From positions 1 through 25,531 of IMG/VR virus record IMGVR_UViG_3300046809_000909: DNA of 25,531 nt. One strand, written 5' to 3'. This DNA is from a virus. The notes beneath the pieces are model-generated. The model saw nothing but the letters and a program-made list of their open reading frames with translations. It made no database searches and had not been told where the DNA came from. Positions 2,700-7,391 of the stretch are shown in pieces; within the stretch, counting starts at the first letter, position 1; each line of letters starts with the position of its first letter. The position numbers and the translations under genes are program-made.

Positions 2700-2783
2700 G
2701 GTATGTCCAAATTTGATATCAAGAATGATAGTTAGAAACAAAAGTATGGGGATAGGGGGGTCAAAAGTGTAATGTCCGATTTG
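2700..2783. promoter_or_regulatory. AT-rich island with palindrome and direct repeat
   Basis: This is the only clearly AT-rich stretch in the window. It contains the perfect palindrome TTGATATCAA (2713-2722) and an imperfect direct repeat, ATGTCCAAATTTG (2703-2715) and ATGTCCGATTTG (2772-2783). It is followed at 2755-2760 by six Gs. A clear -35/-10 pair cannot be fixed by eye on either strand. Possible roles are divergent promoter, protein-binding site (such as IHF-like bending for packaging) or replication-related unwinding element. Confidence 0.4.
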
Positions 2784-2941
2784 GCCAGGACCCGCGCAGG
2801 CTTATTTTTTACGCTGCATGTTTGGCCGGCCTTTTGCACCACAACGCAAAGAGGGCCCCCAGTGGGGCCCCGGTCGATCGCTCGACGTGGGGGCCGTTGA
2901 AGGCCCAGCGGGAGCAAGCTAAGCACGCCTCAGGGCACGCC

Positions 2942-2955: not shown

Positions 2956-2999
2956 GTGACGAATCTCGCGGGTTAGCCGCGTTCTTTCACGATTACAGC

Positions 3000-3367
3000 C
3001 GTGATCCTGGCGGATCACGCTGTGTTGTGTGACCAAGGCCACACGAGCAAGGCGAACACCCCTCGGCAAGGGGTCACCGATGTATAGGTTAGAGCCCCTG
3101 GGGGGGGTAAGGGGGGGCCAAGTATGGCCCCTTAGGGCCAAGGGCTCTCAAGAGCCCCGAAGGGCGCCAGCCCGAGAGGGGCTGACACCCGACAACCCCA
3201 GAAGCGGCCTCAGGGCCGCTAAGTAAAGACCTAGCGCGCATGCGCGCAAGCTACGGCGTCCGCTCCTTCGGGCTACCGCCGCTTCAACTACCCGCCGGTG
3301 ATCCCGGCGGGGAGGCCACATGCCGCCCTTGAGGGGCGGATATCGCATCGGCGCTTACCGCCGATGC
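3000..3367. other. Dense hairpin array upstream of the HNH gene
   Basis: Consecutive inverted repeats with different sequences fill this stretch. Clear stems: CGTGATCC/GGATCACG (3000-3019), ACCCCT/AGGGGT (3058-3074), TGGCCC/GGGCCA (3125-3140), GGGCTC/GAGCCC (3142-3157), CAGCCC/GGGCTG (3168-3184), AGCGGCC/GGCCGCT (3203-3220), the 14-bp palindrome GCGCGCATGCGCGC (3234-3247), CGGCG/CGCCG (3254-3281), CCCGCCGG/CCGGCGGG (3291-3311), CCGCCC/GGGCGG (3323-3339), and GCATCGGCG/CGCCGATGC (3345-3367). GGGGCCA (3114-3120) can also pair with TGGCCCC (3125-3131), competing with the third stem. Two G runs (8 and 7) separated by TAA lie at 3100-3117. It may be a structured leader RNA, a series of terminators, or part of the cohesive-end region. 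Confidence 0.7.
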
Positions 3368-3379
3368 TCTTAGGCGGGG

Positions 3380-3667
3380 GTGTTCAAGATCCCTCGGTCT
3401 ATGTGCCGCCGATGCCGGCGGCTTGTTCCTCTCGGTGAAGCCTTTTGTTCGAGGCACCGCGCAGAAGCGCGGTACTCAAACGCGTGGGCGACGAACAGTC
3501 GCCTAGCAAGGCTTGCGCACCCCTGGTGCGTTCGCTGCGGTTCGGTCGTTGACCTCACCGCCGATCACATCATCCCGCGTTCGCGCGGCGGGACAGACGA
3601 ACTCCACAACATCCAAGTTCTGTGCCGGTCCTGCAATTCGCGCAAACACAACCACCGAGGGGGGTGA
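3380..3667 (+). CDS. HNH endonuclease
   Basis: Encodes 95 residues. Residues 50-53 and 82-85 are two CxxC pairs (WCVRCG, LCRSCN) that bind a structural zinc. The HNH core is visible: DH at 62-63 (TADHIIPRSRGG), N78 in the LHNIQVLC stretch, and H90 in SRKHN. An extra N-terminal set C9, C12, C23, H26 suggests a second zinc site. HNH proteins located just before the terminase genes work with the large terminase in cutting packaging sites in HK97-like phages; this is the probable role. The start is GTG at 3380; an ATG at 3401 is an alternative. The stop lies 7 bases before the small terminase ATG, so the two are co-transcribed. Confidence 0.88.
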   Translation: MFKIPRSMCRRCRRLVPLGEAFCSRHRAEARYSNAWATNSRLARLAHPWCVRCGSVVDLTADHIIPRSRGGTDELHNIQVLCRSCNSRKHNHRGG

Positions 3668-3674
3668 AATTCTC

Positions 3675-4133
3675 ATGCCGGGGCCACCGCCGAAGCCAAC
3701 CCACCTGAAGGTTCTGACTGGCAATCCAGGCAACAGGCCTCTTCCTGAGAACGAACCCCAGCCGGCGAAGGGCGAGCCGGTAAAGCCCCCATGGTTGAAG
3801 GGCCGCGCGGCTGCCGCGTGGCGGGAGCTGGTCCCCGAGCTGGCCCGCATCGGGCTTCTCACGGTCGTGGACGGTCACGCACTCGCGGTCTACTGCGAGG
3901 CGTGGGCAACGTACGTCCAGGCCTCCGAGATCGTTCGCACCGAAGGGATTCTGATCGACTCCTACCGGGGCGGGAAGGCGAAGAACCCCGCAGCTCAGAT
4001 CATGAGGGATTCCGCGGATCTGATGATGAAGGTCGGGGGGCAGTTCGGGCTGACGCCCGCGACCCGCGCCCGGCTCCAGGTGCCGGACGACGGCACAGAC
4101 GGATTCGACATGGAGTCGCTTTTGAGCGGCTGA
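3675..4133 (+). CDS. Terminase small subunit, P27-like
   Basis: Encodes 152 residues beginning MPGPPPKPTHLKVLTGNPG, the typical start of P27-family small terminases with its Pro-rich opening and LxGNPGxRPL motif. The middle (AAAAWRELVPELARIGLLTVVDGHALAVYCEAW, residues about 40-75) matches the helical domain of the family, and the C terminus carries GLTPATRARL. The frame is open upstream to 3513, but the ATG at 3675 has GGGGGGTG about 10 bases upstream and gives the family's usual length. The protein recognises the packaging site and assembles the motor with the large subunit. Unusually the large subunit gene is 1.6 kb downstream, separated by tRNAs, a His-rich protein and a winged-helix protein. 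Confidence 0.88.
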   Translation: MPGPPPKPTHLKVLTGNPGNRPLPENEPQPAKGEPVKPPWLKGRAAAAWRELVPELARIGLLTVVDGHALAVYCEAWATYVQASEIVRTEGILIDSYRGGKAKNPAAQIMRDSADLMMKVGGQFGLTPATRARLQVPDDGTDGFDMESLLSG

Positions 4134-4215: not shown

Positions 4216-4290
4216 CTGCCGGTAAGCTCAATTGGCAGAGCTGCCTTCTCAGAATGAAGGCGTGTGCAGGTTCGAGGCCTGCCCGGTCGG
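4216..4290 (+). tRNA. tRNA-like gene, anticodon position reads AGA, C at position 33
   Basis: A complete cloverleaf can be drawn: acceptor 4216-4222 with 4283-4289 (one T-C mismatch and one G-U), U8 A9 at 4223-4224, D arm with a GG-containing loop, anticodon stem CCTTC/GAAGG, 5-base variable loop, and T arm GCAGG/CCTGC with loop TTCGAGG. The CCA is not encoded. The seven-base anticodon loop is TCAGAAT, which puts AGA (Ser-type) at 34-36 but C at 33 in place of the near-universal U. With a nine-base loop (opening C31-G39) a normal-looking CTCAGAA sequence would present CAG. The amino acid identity is therefore uncertain. Confidence 0.75.
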
Positions 4291-4294
4291 CTTT

Positions 4295-4381: not shown

Positions 4382-4660
4382 ATGGCACGGCTCGTTCAGA
4401 CCAGGGTTGCGCGGATTCCGCGCGTCAGGGCGCCGAAGGCGGTTCGGGCTCCGAAGCCCCCGAAGCCTCCGAAGGCGGTTTCCCTTCCCGGAGTCACGCT
4501 TGGCCGGACTTCGAACCGGTCGCCCCGCGCAGGGGCGCATGTCCATCACCACCACGCGACGCCGCACGCGCCGCACGCGCACCACGTTCCGCCGCACCAC
4601 ACGCCGCACCACGCGGCGCCGAAGCCCCCCGCCGGCCACCGCCGACACAAGCACCACTGA
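4382..4660 (+). CDS. Basic His/Pro-rich small protein
   Basis: Encodes 92 residues from ATG at 4382, preceded by GGGGGTT (4373-4379). The first half is Arg/Lys/Pro-rich (residues 1-35, with APKPPKPPKA). The second half is dominated by histidine, alanine and proline: HVHHHHATPHAPHAHH from about residue 53, continuing to HRRHKHH at the C terminus, with about 20 histidines. No fold is expected. Such a composition could bind Ni, Zn or Cu, bind nucleic acid in a pH-dependent way, or be a head-associated DNA-compacting peptide; none is demonstrated. The frame is open through the tRNA upstream, but that part is not coding. The pronounced His bias argues for selection on the protein in this frame. 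Confidence 0.6.
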   Translation: MARLVQTRVARIPRVRAPKAVRAPKPPKPPKAVSLPGVTLGRTSNRSPRAGAHVHHHHATPHAPHAHHVPPHHTPHHAAPKPPAGHRRHKHH

Positions 4661-4662
4661 AG

Positions 4663-4726
4663 GCCCGTGTTCCTGAGCGCCCGTGTTCCTGGGCGCTCAC
4701 GTTCCTGAGCGTTCGCGTTCCTGGGC
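4663..4726. repeat. Four tandem 16-bp units with interchangeable stems
   Basis: Four head-to-tail units of exactly 16 bp start at 4663, 4679, 4695 and 4711. Each contains GTTCCTG at the same place (4669, 4685, 4701, 4717). Unit ends are complementary to neighbours: GAGCGCCC (4675-4682) pairs perfectly with GGGCGCTC (4691-4698), which can instead pair with GAGCGTTC (4707-4714). The stems are mutually exclusive, as in an attenuator or in an iteron-like binding array. Confidence 0.8.
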
Positions 4727-4733
4727 GCCTCAA

Positions 4734-4763
4734 GTATTGCGCTTGACGAGTCAAGGGCGCTAA
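4734..4763. promoter_or_regulatory. Inverted pair of GTCAAG motifs upstream of the winged-helix gene
   Basis: The plus strand has GTCAAGGGCGCTAA at 4750-4763. The minus strand has GTCAAGCGCAATAC at 4747-4734. Together they form the perfect palindrome CTTGAC GA GTCAAG (4742-4755). The site is 75 bases upstream of the winged-helix protein start, so autoregulation by that protein is a fair hypothesis. Confidence 0.6.
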
Positions 4764-5722: not shown

Positions 5723-5744
5723 CGGCGTGTGCTTGGGGGTGCGG

Positions 5745-7391
5745 ATGCTTCTCGCTCCCCACGCGCCCGCAGATGCCGCTGAGGGCCTGTTCCGGTGGGA
5801 CGAAGGCGCGGCCGATCGGGTCGTGAACTTCTTCGAGAAGGTCTTGGTTCACACCAAGGGCCGTCACGCGCGTAAGCCGTTCCTGTTGACGGGCTGGCAG
5901 AAGAACGACATTGTCCGGCCGCTGTTCGGGACGATGGCCTATGACGAGCAGTACGACGAATGGGTACGTCAGTACCGCGTTGCGTGGCTTGAGATGGCCC
6001 GCAAGAACGGCAAGTCCGAGCTTGCCTCCGGCTTTGCCCTGTACGGCCTTGTAGGCGACGGGGAAGAGTCGGCCGAGGTTTACTCCGTCGCGGCCGACCG
6101 CGATCAAGCCTCATTGGTCTTCGACGTCGCTAAGCGGATGGTCGAGCTTTCTCCCGTCCTGTCTAAGCGGCTCGTGGTCGTGGCGTCCAAGAAACGCATC
6201 ATTGACCCGAAGACGAACAGCTTTTACGCGGTCCTCCCCGGGGACGCCTCCGGCGCCCTCGGCACTAACCCGTCAATGGTCTTGTTTGACGAGGTTCTGA
6301 CGCAGAAAGACCGGCATCTTTGGGATGCAATGCGCCAGGGCTTCGGTACCCGGCGTCAGCCGATTCTTATCGCCACCACTACAGCCGCGTACACGTCGGC
6401 TCGTTTCGCCTTGGAGGAACACGAGTATGGAGAACAACTCCTCAGCAAACCTTCCGGCGACCCTTCCCGGTTCGTGTTCATGCGGAATACTCCACGCGAT
6501 TGGGATTGGCGTGACGAAGGAACACCAGCCAACCCCGACACTGGAGAGCCCGCAACCGGCTGGTACCACGCCAACCCCGCCCTCGGAGACTTCCTCAGCA
6601 TCGGAAACCTGAGGTCCGAGGCCCTAGAAGCCGAGTCGAAGCCGAGCGCTGAGAACGCCTTCCGGGTGTTCCGGCTGAACCAATGGGTGTCGCAGGCGGA
6701 GCGCTGGCTTGATATGGCCGTGTGGGACCTGAACGCGGCTCAGCCCGTGTCCAGGGAAGCCCTCAAGGGGCGTTGCTGCTTTGCCGGCCTGGACCTTGCC
6801 TCCGTGTCCGACTTCACCGCGTGGGTTCTGCTGTTCCCGGGGTCTCCAGAGGACCCCGACGCGGGCGGGTTCACGGTGCTACCCCGCTTCTGGATTCCGT
6901 CGAAGGCTCTCAAGGCCAGGGGCGCTCAGCGCCAGACGCTTGAGTACTGGCGGGACCTCGGTTATCTCACCATCACCGACTCTGACACCACGGATTACAA
7001 CGTGGTGCGGGAAGAGATCGGCAAGGACGCCGAGGATTTCTGTATAGACCTCTTCGGCTATGACCCTTGGAACGCTACTCACCTAGTGAGCGAGCTTGAA
7101 GACGGGGGCCTTGACGGCGTTAAGGCGCCTCAGACGTCGGCCCGCATGACCGATCCGTGCAAGTGGCTGGAGTCCCTTCTAGCGCAGGGCGAGCTACACC
7201 ACGGCGGGAATCCGGTCCTCCGCTGGATGGCGGACAACGTAGAGATTCAGCGCACGGCGGAAGGCTTGTTCAAGCCTTCTAAGGCCAAGTCTGGCGACAA
7301 GATCGACGGCATTAGCGCGCTGCTTAACGCGCTGTTTGTCGCATTCACTGAAGACGACACAGAGGCGGGTTTCGTCAGCCTTGCCGACTAA
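5745..7391 (+). CDS. Terminase large subunit
   Basis: Encodes 548 residues from ATG at 5745, with GGGGG five bases upstream; a GTG at 5727 would add six residues but has no binding site. The N-terminal ATPase shows an atypical Walker A, ARKNGKS (85-91), Walker B MVLFDE (178-183), and a TTT coupling motif at 211-213. The C-terminal RNase H-like nuclease has D350 in GLDLASVSD, D356, D440 in FGYDPWN, and D518/D521 in GDKIDGISAL, which are good metal-binding candidates. The domains and length match HK97-type phage terminases. It cuts concatemeric DNA and pumps it into the prohead through the portal encoded two genes downstream. Confidence 0.95.
   Translation: MLLAPHAPADAAEGLFRWDEGAADRVVNFFEKVLVHTKGRHARKPFLLTGWQKNDIVRPLFGTMAYDEQYDEWVRQYRVAWLEMARKNGKSELASGFALYGLVGDGEESAEVYSVAADRDQASLVFDVAKRMVELSPVLSKRLVVVASKKRIIDPKTNSFYAVLPGDASGALGTNPSMVLFDEVLTQKDRHLWDAMRQGFGTRRQPILIATTTAAYTSARFALEEHEYGEQLLSKPSGDPSRFVFMRNTPRDWDWRDEGTPANPDTGEPATGWYHANPALGDFLSIGNLRSEALEAESKPSAENAFRVFRLNQWVSQAERWLDMAVWDLNAAQPVSREALKGRCCFAGLDLASVSDFTAWVLLFPGSPEDPDAGGFTVLPRFWIPSKALKARGAQRQTLEYWRDLGYLTITDSDTTDYNVVREEIGKDAEDFCIDLFGYDPWNATHLVSELEDGGLDGVKAPQTSARMTDPCKWLESLLAQGELHHGGNPVLRWMADNVEIQRTAEGLFKPSKAKSGDKIDGISALLNALFVAFTEDDTEAGFVSLAD

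Follow-up and report, generated by a model that had tools for sequence, protein, structure and literature searches.

Why should about 1 kb without coding potential, much of it packed with short hairpins, stand directly in front of the packaging genes of a phage? The question is raised by the virus record IMGVR_UViG_3300046809_000909, a 25.5-kb record (25,531 nucleotides) that we analysed at its full length and call the window. Its terminase, portal and head maturation protease mark it as an HK97-type phage, and its close relatives are metagenome contigs. The non-coding stretch lies between a leftward gene (2395-1922) and the first late gene, which encodes an HNH endonuclease (3389-3667, plus strand; assigned by PHROGs and Pfam, with the start placed by comparison). 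Downstream on the same strand are the genes for the small terminase subunit, terS (3675-4133; phrog_83, 3.6e-51), and the large subunit, terL (5727-7391; phrog_9, 4.5e-144).

Little is known about how actinobacterial phages activate their late genes. A first-pass annotation had suggested that the hairpins form a structured non-coding RNA, a packaging or cohesive-end region, or a leader that protects the late mRNA, and our analysis partly supports this interpretation. Our preferred reading, to which we give about even odds (roughly 0.5), treats the array as the structured, untranslated start of the HNH-terS-terL mRNA, a 5' leader acting as a series of attenuators that lack U tracts and are passed by antitermination. 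The finding reaches past the window, as the array is a trait common to several actinophage lineages and hidden from sequence similarity.

The hairpin array of the window

Positions 2990-3380 contain 11 non-overlapping perfect hairpins (stem of at least 5 bp, loop of 3-10 nt), compared to 3.4 +/- 1.5 in dinucleotide shuffles, and 11 was reached in 0 of 300 shuffles. The run of about eleven hairpins that the first-pass annotation had noticed is therefore far outside expectation. The same stretch has five stems of at least 7 bp where 0.3 are expected, and 73 stem-forming bp where 18 are expected. It is the hairpin-densest stretch in the window, and the equivalent place is also the densest in three other genomes or contigs of the clade (four including the window); most other non-coding gaps in those genomes have far fewer hairpins. 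Relative to shuffles, the folding energy of the region has a z of -5.2 on the plus strand and -7.3 on the minus strand.

Seven of these hairpins lie between the head of the array and the HNH gene (all plus strand). GGGCTC-TCAA-GAGCCC (3142-3157) is an alternative to the outer arm of a larger stem-loop at 3091-3148. It is followed by CAGCCC-GAGAG-GGGCTG (3168-3184), which has the same stem in relatives L056, L053 and L009, and by AGCGGCC-TCAG-GGCCGCT (3203-3220), whose arms are AGGCTCGC/GCGAGCCT in L053 and L009. Next is GCGCG-CATG-CGCGC (3234-3247), the palindrome GCGCGCATGCGCGC, which had been described as 14 bp; the palindrome exists, but it is 14 nt long and consists of a 5-bp stem and a 4-nt loop. 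The last three are CCCGCCGG-TGATC-CCGGCGGG (3291-3311, from the perfect-stem scan), CCGCCC-TTGAG-GGGCGG (3323-3339) and GCATCGGCG-CTTAC-CGCCGATGC (3345-3367). The gaps between hairpins are mostly 5-13 nt, but three are longer (18, 39 and 43 nt), and the last hairpin ends only ~10-20 nt before the ribosome-binding site of HNH.

These hairpins are not U-tract intrinsic terminators. In a simple terminator scan, the core hairpins had no T-rich tail, as first noted, but a few T-containing tails were called, mostly at the edges of the array. The A/T flanks around the hairpins are weak and symmetric. The true terminators that these phages possess differ from the array hairpins in their longer stems and their T tails.

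Conservation as a trait and covariation in relatives

An excess of hairpins upstream of HNH is found in all tested members of the window's soil-phage clade (z 3.2-7.1), in Salinispora prophages (z 6.0 and 6.3; one strain is S. pacifica CNT603, recognized via its IMG number in PMC6426641), in a second soil clade (z 2.0-5.5), in R4-like phages (z 1.7-4.6) and in the mycobacteriophages Severus (z 4.3) and Kampy (z 4.0-4.5). Unrelated HNH loci gave z near zero, at most about 2. The stems, the loops and the number of hairpins differ even between relatives that are ~80% identical, and whole hairpins are gained or lost; for example, an insert in L053 and L056 reuses AACCCC seeds. The stem sequences are no more conserved than the spacers. 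A nucleotide search of 50,697 phage records with the window region, the Salinispora array and the head elements as queries gave no meaningful match, and a terL search of 394 Actinobacteria genomes found Parafrankia only.

Such variability argues against a discrete large non-coding RNA of fixed fold (GOLLD- or ROOL-like) and against an RNA that partners the HNH protein. An untranslated RNA that is highly expressed in Kampy (see below) and an HNH gene that is always adjacent would fit such an RNA. However, its hairpins should not change in number, order and sequence among relatives so similar, and the array region matched no Rfam family at gathering or relaxed thresholds, large phage non-coding RNAs included. 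We consider this explanation very improbable.

The pairing itself is maintained. The first-pass annotation had pointed to a covariation test on homologous phages, and compensatory changes are indeed present: the covariation score was above all 500 shuffles in each of four alignments (the head hairpin described below, window positions 3323-3367, the second clade and the R4-like phages). In the window, the hairpin at 3323-3339 has a compensatory C-G to G-C change among relatives, and that at 3345-3367 has compensatory changes in L007 and L053. In the second clade, 100% of cells are paired and five positions have double changes (0/500 shuffles), with loops masked with N and arms put in register by hand. 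In the R4-like alignment (last hairpin and outer helix), seven positions and 18 cells contribute (0/500 shuffles), and there are G-U intermediates. A -10-like repeat inside the array of the second clade is a possible internal promoter.

Could a stretch with no function, tolerant of change, keep acquiring perfect palindromes by template switching? The gain and loss of whole hairpins, as in the L053/L056 insert, would be expected, as would the presence of perfect stems with no excess of imperfect helices and the lack of extra conservation in the stems. But the trait recurs at one place across lineages that share almost no sequence, it comes with ordered elements (a Crp-type site, a -10-like hexamer and a G-run), and hairpins are far scarcer in most other non-coding gaps of these genomes. 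We regard the absence of function as improbable.

A likely cos block to the left of the array

A conserved block at 2752-2828 (plus strand) contains a likely cos core, AGGACCCGCGCA/GGCTTATTTTTTACGCTGCA. It is 79-92% identical in relatives whose array fails to align. In two different phages, the contigs (L052 and L059/L181) have exactly the homolog of 2799 as their first base, which suggests that these starts mark the left end of the virion DNA, probably with the overhang GACCCGCGCA. A left end at ~2799 stays probable only, because we found no contig that ends at this base from the other side. In R4-like phages with cohesive ends, the left end is 600-850 nt before the HNH gene. Thus, the proposal of a cohesive-end region appears correct for the neighborhood and not for the hairpins: the likely cos core (~2785-2830) lies 200-300 bp before the array and is likely a separate element that is not built from array hairpins. 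The arrangement resembles the cos region of phi12/phiSLT-like phages with an HNH-type terminase in its HNH-terS-terL order and in the likely cos site just to the left, and differs in that the window's cos core is not formed by the hairpins. In Salinispora prophages, we discarded a cos-like match upstream of terS because it lacked significance.

One assembly of 89,947 bp (G005, IMGVR 3300046678_000420) contains two different phage genomes of the clade in tandem, at 44133 and 89173. Its likely cos blocks are 45,040 bp apart, as in tandem prophages, a concatemer or a chimeric assembly.

The proximity of cos raises the alternative that the array works as DNA, with inverted repeats near the left virion end that serve binding by terminase or HNH, replication or recombination. 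The likely cos is close and a packaging-type HNH gene is always adjacent. In addition, array stems are strictly Watson-Crick, with no internal G-T, and they have no plus-strand bias: single changes to G-T (27) are as frequent as those to A-C (26), and a strand comparison of array folding gave z of -5.8 vs -5.2. Against this, stem sequences that differ wholly between relatives would be unusual for a protein-binding DNA site, and the Salinispora prophages have other sequence between HNH and terS. Furthermore, the head hairpin and the leaders of R4-like phages such as Zemlya contain plus-strand G-U pairs, consistent with a plus-strand RNA, and the corresponding region is transcribed late in Kampy. 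A role as DNA is in our judgment unlikely, if somewhat less so than the lack of any function.

A Crp-type site, a candidate promoter and a G-rich head

The left part of the array coincides with what may be a promoter region. The palindrome TGTGACCAAGGCCACA (3028-3043) matches 9 of 10 positions of the Crp-type consensus TGTGAN6TCACA (PMC5327559) and is probably an activator site; a hairpin at 3027-3044 coincides with this operator. The site matches at 9-10 of 10 positions in the close clade, in the Salinispora prophages and in contigs L084 and L290, and at 8-10 of 10 in R4-like phages. It is not universal, being absent upstream of the array from Severus and most of the second clade. Downstream is a -10-like hexamer, TATAGG (3083-3088, plus strand), which is TATTAA, TATAAG or TATAAC in relatives and sits 45-48 nt from the center of the Crp-type site in most of them (read by hand; the distance in L053 is about one helical turn longer). 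We detected no -35 match and no consensus promoter there. Transcription probably starts downstream of the three hairpins that precede ~3083: CGTGATCC-TGGC-GGATCACG (3000-3019, plus strand), the operator hairpin, and ACCCCT-CGGCA-AGGGGT (3058-3074, plus strand), which lies between the Crp-type site and the hexamer and is replaced by a hairpin of different sequence in relatives.

The hexamer is followed by the head of the array, a stem-loop with arms AGAGCCCCTGG and CCAAGGGCTCT (3091-3148, plus strand) that encloses another hairpin (3114-3131). It contains a G-run, GGGGGGGGTAAGGGGGGG (3100-3117, plus strand), of the form G8-TAA-G7, which is the local version of an element, GGGGGTAAGGGGG, conserved in both soil clades. 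In most relatives the next feature is a ladder hairpin with a GC-GNA-GC cap and tandem G-A pairs, found as a single copy in each full phage genome that has one. Its outer stem covaries (score 0.273 vs 0.106, 0/500 shuffles), and the U-G pairs that the hairpin retains on the plus strand point to a plus-strand RNA. The window has lost the ladder and matches the head-hairpin model weakly (18.4 bits). The cap motif alone is not diagnostic, because similar capped hairpins also follow ordinary actinobacterial genes. A search of 394 Actinobacteria genomes with the head-hairpin covariance model returned nothing but generic hairpins with a GAGCGNAGCGA cap, located downstream of genes and tRNAs.

Two further observations concern the head. 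The same GGGGGTAAGGGGG element with a GAGCGAAGCGA-capped hairpin occurs at 1420-1466 of L337 (IMGVR 3300048691_000182), an AT-rich 96-kb contig of uncertain nature. Some relatives have a direct repeat with two copies per phage (TTTTACATGTCTATAG in L319; AACAGGTCTA in L289 and others), one ~20-30 nt before the G-run and one within the array. The two copies change together between phages, and the repeat is possibly a pair of promoters or a binding site.

Comparison to known phages and regulatory leaders

The window can be linked to known phages by anatomy, not by pairwise sequence. BLASTP of its HNH protein against those of R4 and Kampy gave no direct similarity, and the three share only profile matches (phrog_144, phrog_589). 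The link to R4 emerged only when we read through the left ends of well-known phages. The first gene of R4 is HNH, and the 670 nt in front of it contain a perfect Crp-type site and hairpins; R4 positions 1-1000 are matched by 176 records, and one related record describes its virion ends as cohesive. Like the window, the R4-like Streptomyces phages (Arquatrovirinae: R4, Hydra, Zemlya and Sujidade) combine a Crp-type palindrome, short covarying hairpins and HNH as the first rightward gene. Unlike the window, they have fewer hairpins and only a degenerate G-run head, and there is no nucleotide similarity. The papers that we found contain no description of the R4-like left end as a regulatory leader.

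The cluster A mycobacteriophages are similar in outline. In Severus, GGGGGGATAAAGGGGGG is followed by long hairpins, which directly precede HNH. In Kampy, gene 1 is HNH and a hairpin array is in front of it, as in the window, although Kampy is a distant phage with no nucleotide similarity and no identified Crp-type site. In RNA-seq of Kampy, the region that corresponds to the array is the strongest late transcript and is untranslated (PMC4626039). The authors interpreted the peak as a pile-up of 5' reads at the start site, did not mention hairpins, and reported the leader to be conserved only within its own subcluster (PMC4626039).

Clusters of U-less hairpins less than 15 nt apart are reported to act as terminators and to be common in Actinobacteria (Gupta and Pal 2021, PMC8355165), and nearly 90% of terminator structures in M. 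tuberculosis are without a plain U trail (PMC8355165). The array likewise has no U tracts, and the spacing of its several hairpins is mostly below 15 nt. In contrast to the reported clusters, which are found after stop codons, it is far longer and fronts an operon that must be expressed. It also resembles the lambda nut/qut and HK022 put leaders: it is close to the 5' end of a long phage operon and has possible terminators downstream of it. Those leaders have a fixed element, whereas an antiterminator or a conserved binding RNA is only hypothetical in this case, and the ladder hairpin has been lost from the window. We identified no antiterminator.

The array as a probable late mRNA leader

The array is most likely an mRNA leader, because its counterpart in Kampy is transcribed late and abundantly and because the 10-20 nt after the last hairpin leave almost no room for a promoter before HNH. 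We have good confidence in this part, a transcribed late leader. The late transcript (HNH-terS-terL-portal onwards) would start near 3090-3100, downstream of the Crp-type site and the -10-like hexamer, and would pass the G-rich head and then about eight close-packed short perfect hairpins up to the ribosome-binding site of HNH. We postulate that each U-less hairpin could stall or release part of the RNA polymerase, and that the late operon might be read through only after modification of the polymerase late in infection by processive antitermination, for which the head element may be the loading site. The hairpins would count, and not their sequence, so that stems could be gained, lost and rewritten between relatives.

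Attenuation is the more tentative part, with a chance that we put at somewhat below even. It is favored because U-less clusters are reported as terminators and because the leader peak in Kampy, which exceeds the downstream genes (PMC4626039), fits partial termination. Several observations weigh against a leader or against attenuation: the array has no strand bias, its stems are no more conserved than the spacers, and the true terminators of these phages are different. The pile-up of 5' reads could also explain the Kampy peak.

The main alternative is a transcribed leader whose hairpins do not terminate, but stabilize the late mRNA against nucleases or block the loading of Rho. It draws on the same transcription in Kampy, the hairpins without U tracts would be in keeping with it, given that the phages' own terminators have T tails, and the short free stretches would leave little open RNA for Rho. 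A single 5' hairpin is usually enough for mRNA stability, so a long structured leader would be unnecessary, and stabilization of the whole mRNA alone would not lift the leader peak above the downstream genes. We therefore think it unlikely, although it is the strongest of the alternatives. Accordingly, the earlier suggestion of a late-mRNA leader is upheld as to a structured leader, by the compensatory changes, the retention of the trait and the Kampy transcript, but attenuation fits somewhat better than a protective role.

We speculate, with considerable doubt, that cos-type actinophages share an unrecognized class of late-leader RNA whose defining property is the packing of hairpins rather than any sequence. 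Interchangeable hairpins behind a Crp-gated promoter would restrain the operon of packaging and structural genes until read-through is brought about by a phage factor loaded at the G-rich head. If so, a leader common to R4-like phages, cluster A, Salinispora prophages and uncultured soil phages would be a shared control point missed by sequence comparison, and the recurrent Crp-type site would couple late expression to host cAMP signaling.

The HNH start and neighboring features

The start codon of HNH in the window is probably AUC at 3389, since ATC occurs at this position in all five members of the window's subclade (the window, L056, L053, L009 and L007), a G-run lies ~6 nt upstream of 3389-3391, and the next codons change only synonymously. 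Other relatives have ATG, GTG or TTG, and the window has an in-frame GTG at 3380. In L056 and L009 a perfect hairpin, GGGGGAT-CACC-ATCCCCC, would mask the ribosome-binding site and the AUC start; its counterpart in the window is imperfect.

Several small features follow terS. ARAGORN calls a tRNA-Ser(AGA) of 76 nt at 4216-4291, which Rfam does not report. Serine tRNAs have a long variable arm, and 76 nt leaves no room for one. The call adjoins a tRNA-Ile(TAT), with the anticodon for a codon that is rare in GC-rich hosts. Farther downstream, a small open reading frame (4383-4660) encodes a histidine-rich tail (HHHHATPHAPHAHHVPPHHTPHHAAPKPPAGHRRHKHH), and a short imperfect repeat, GTTCCTGRGCG, follows it at ~4670-4735.
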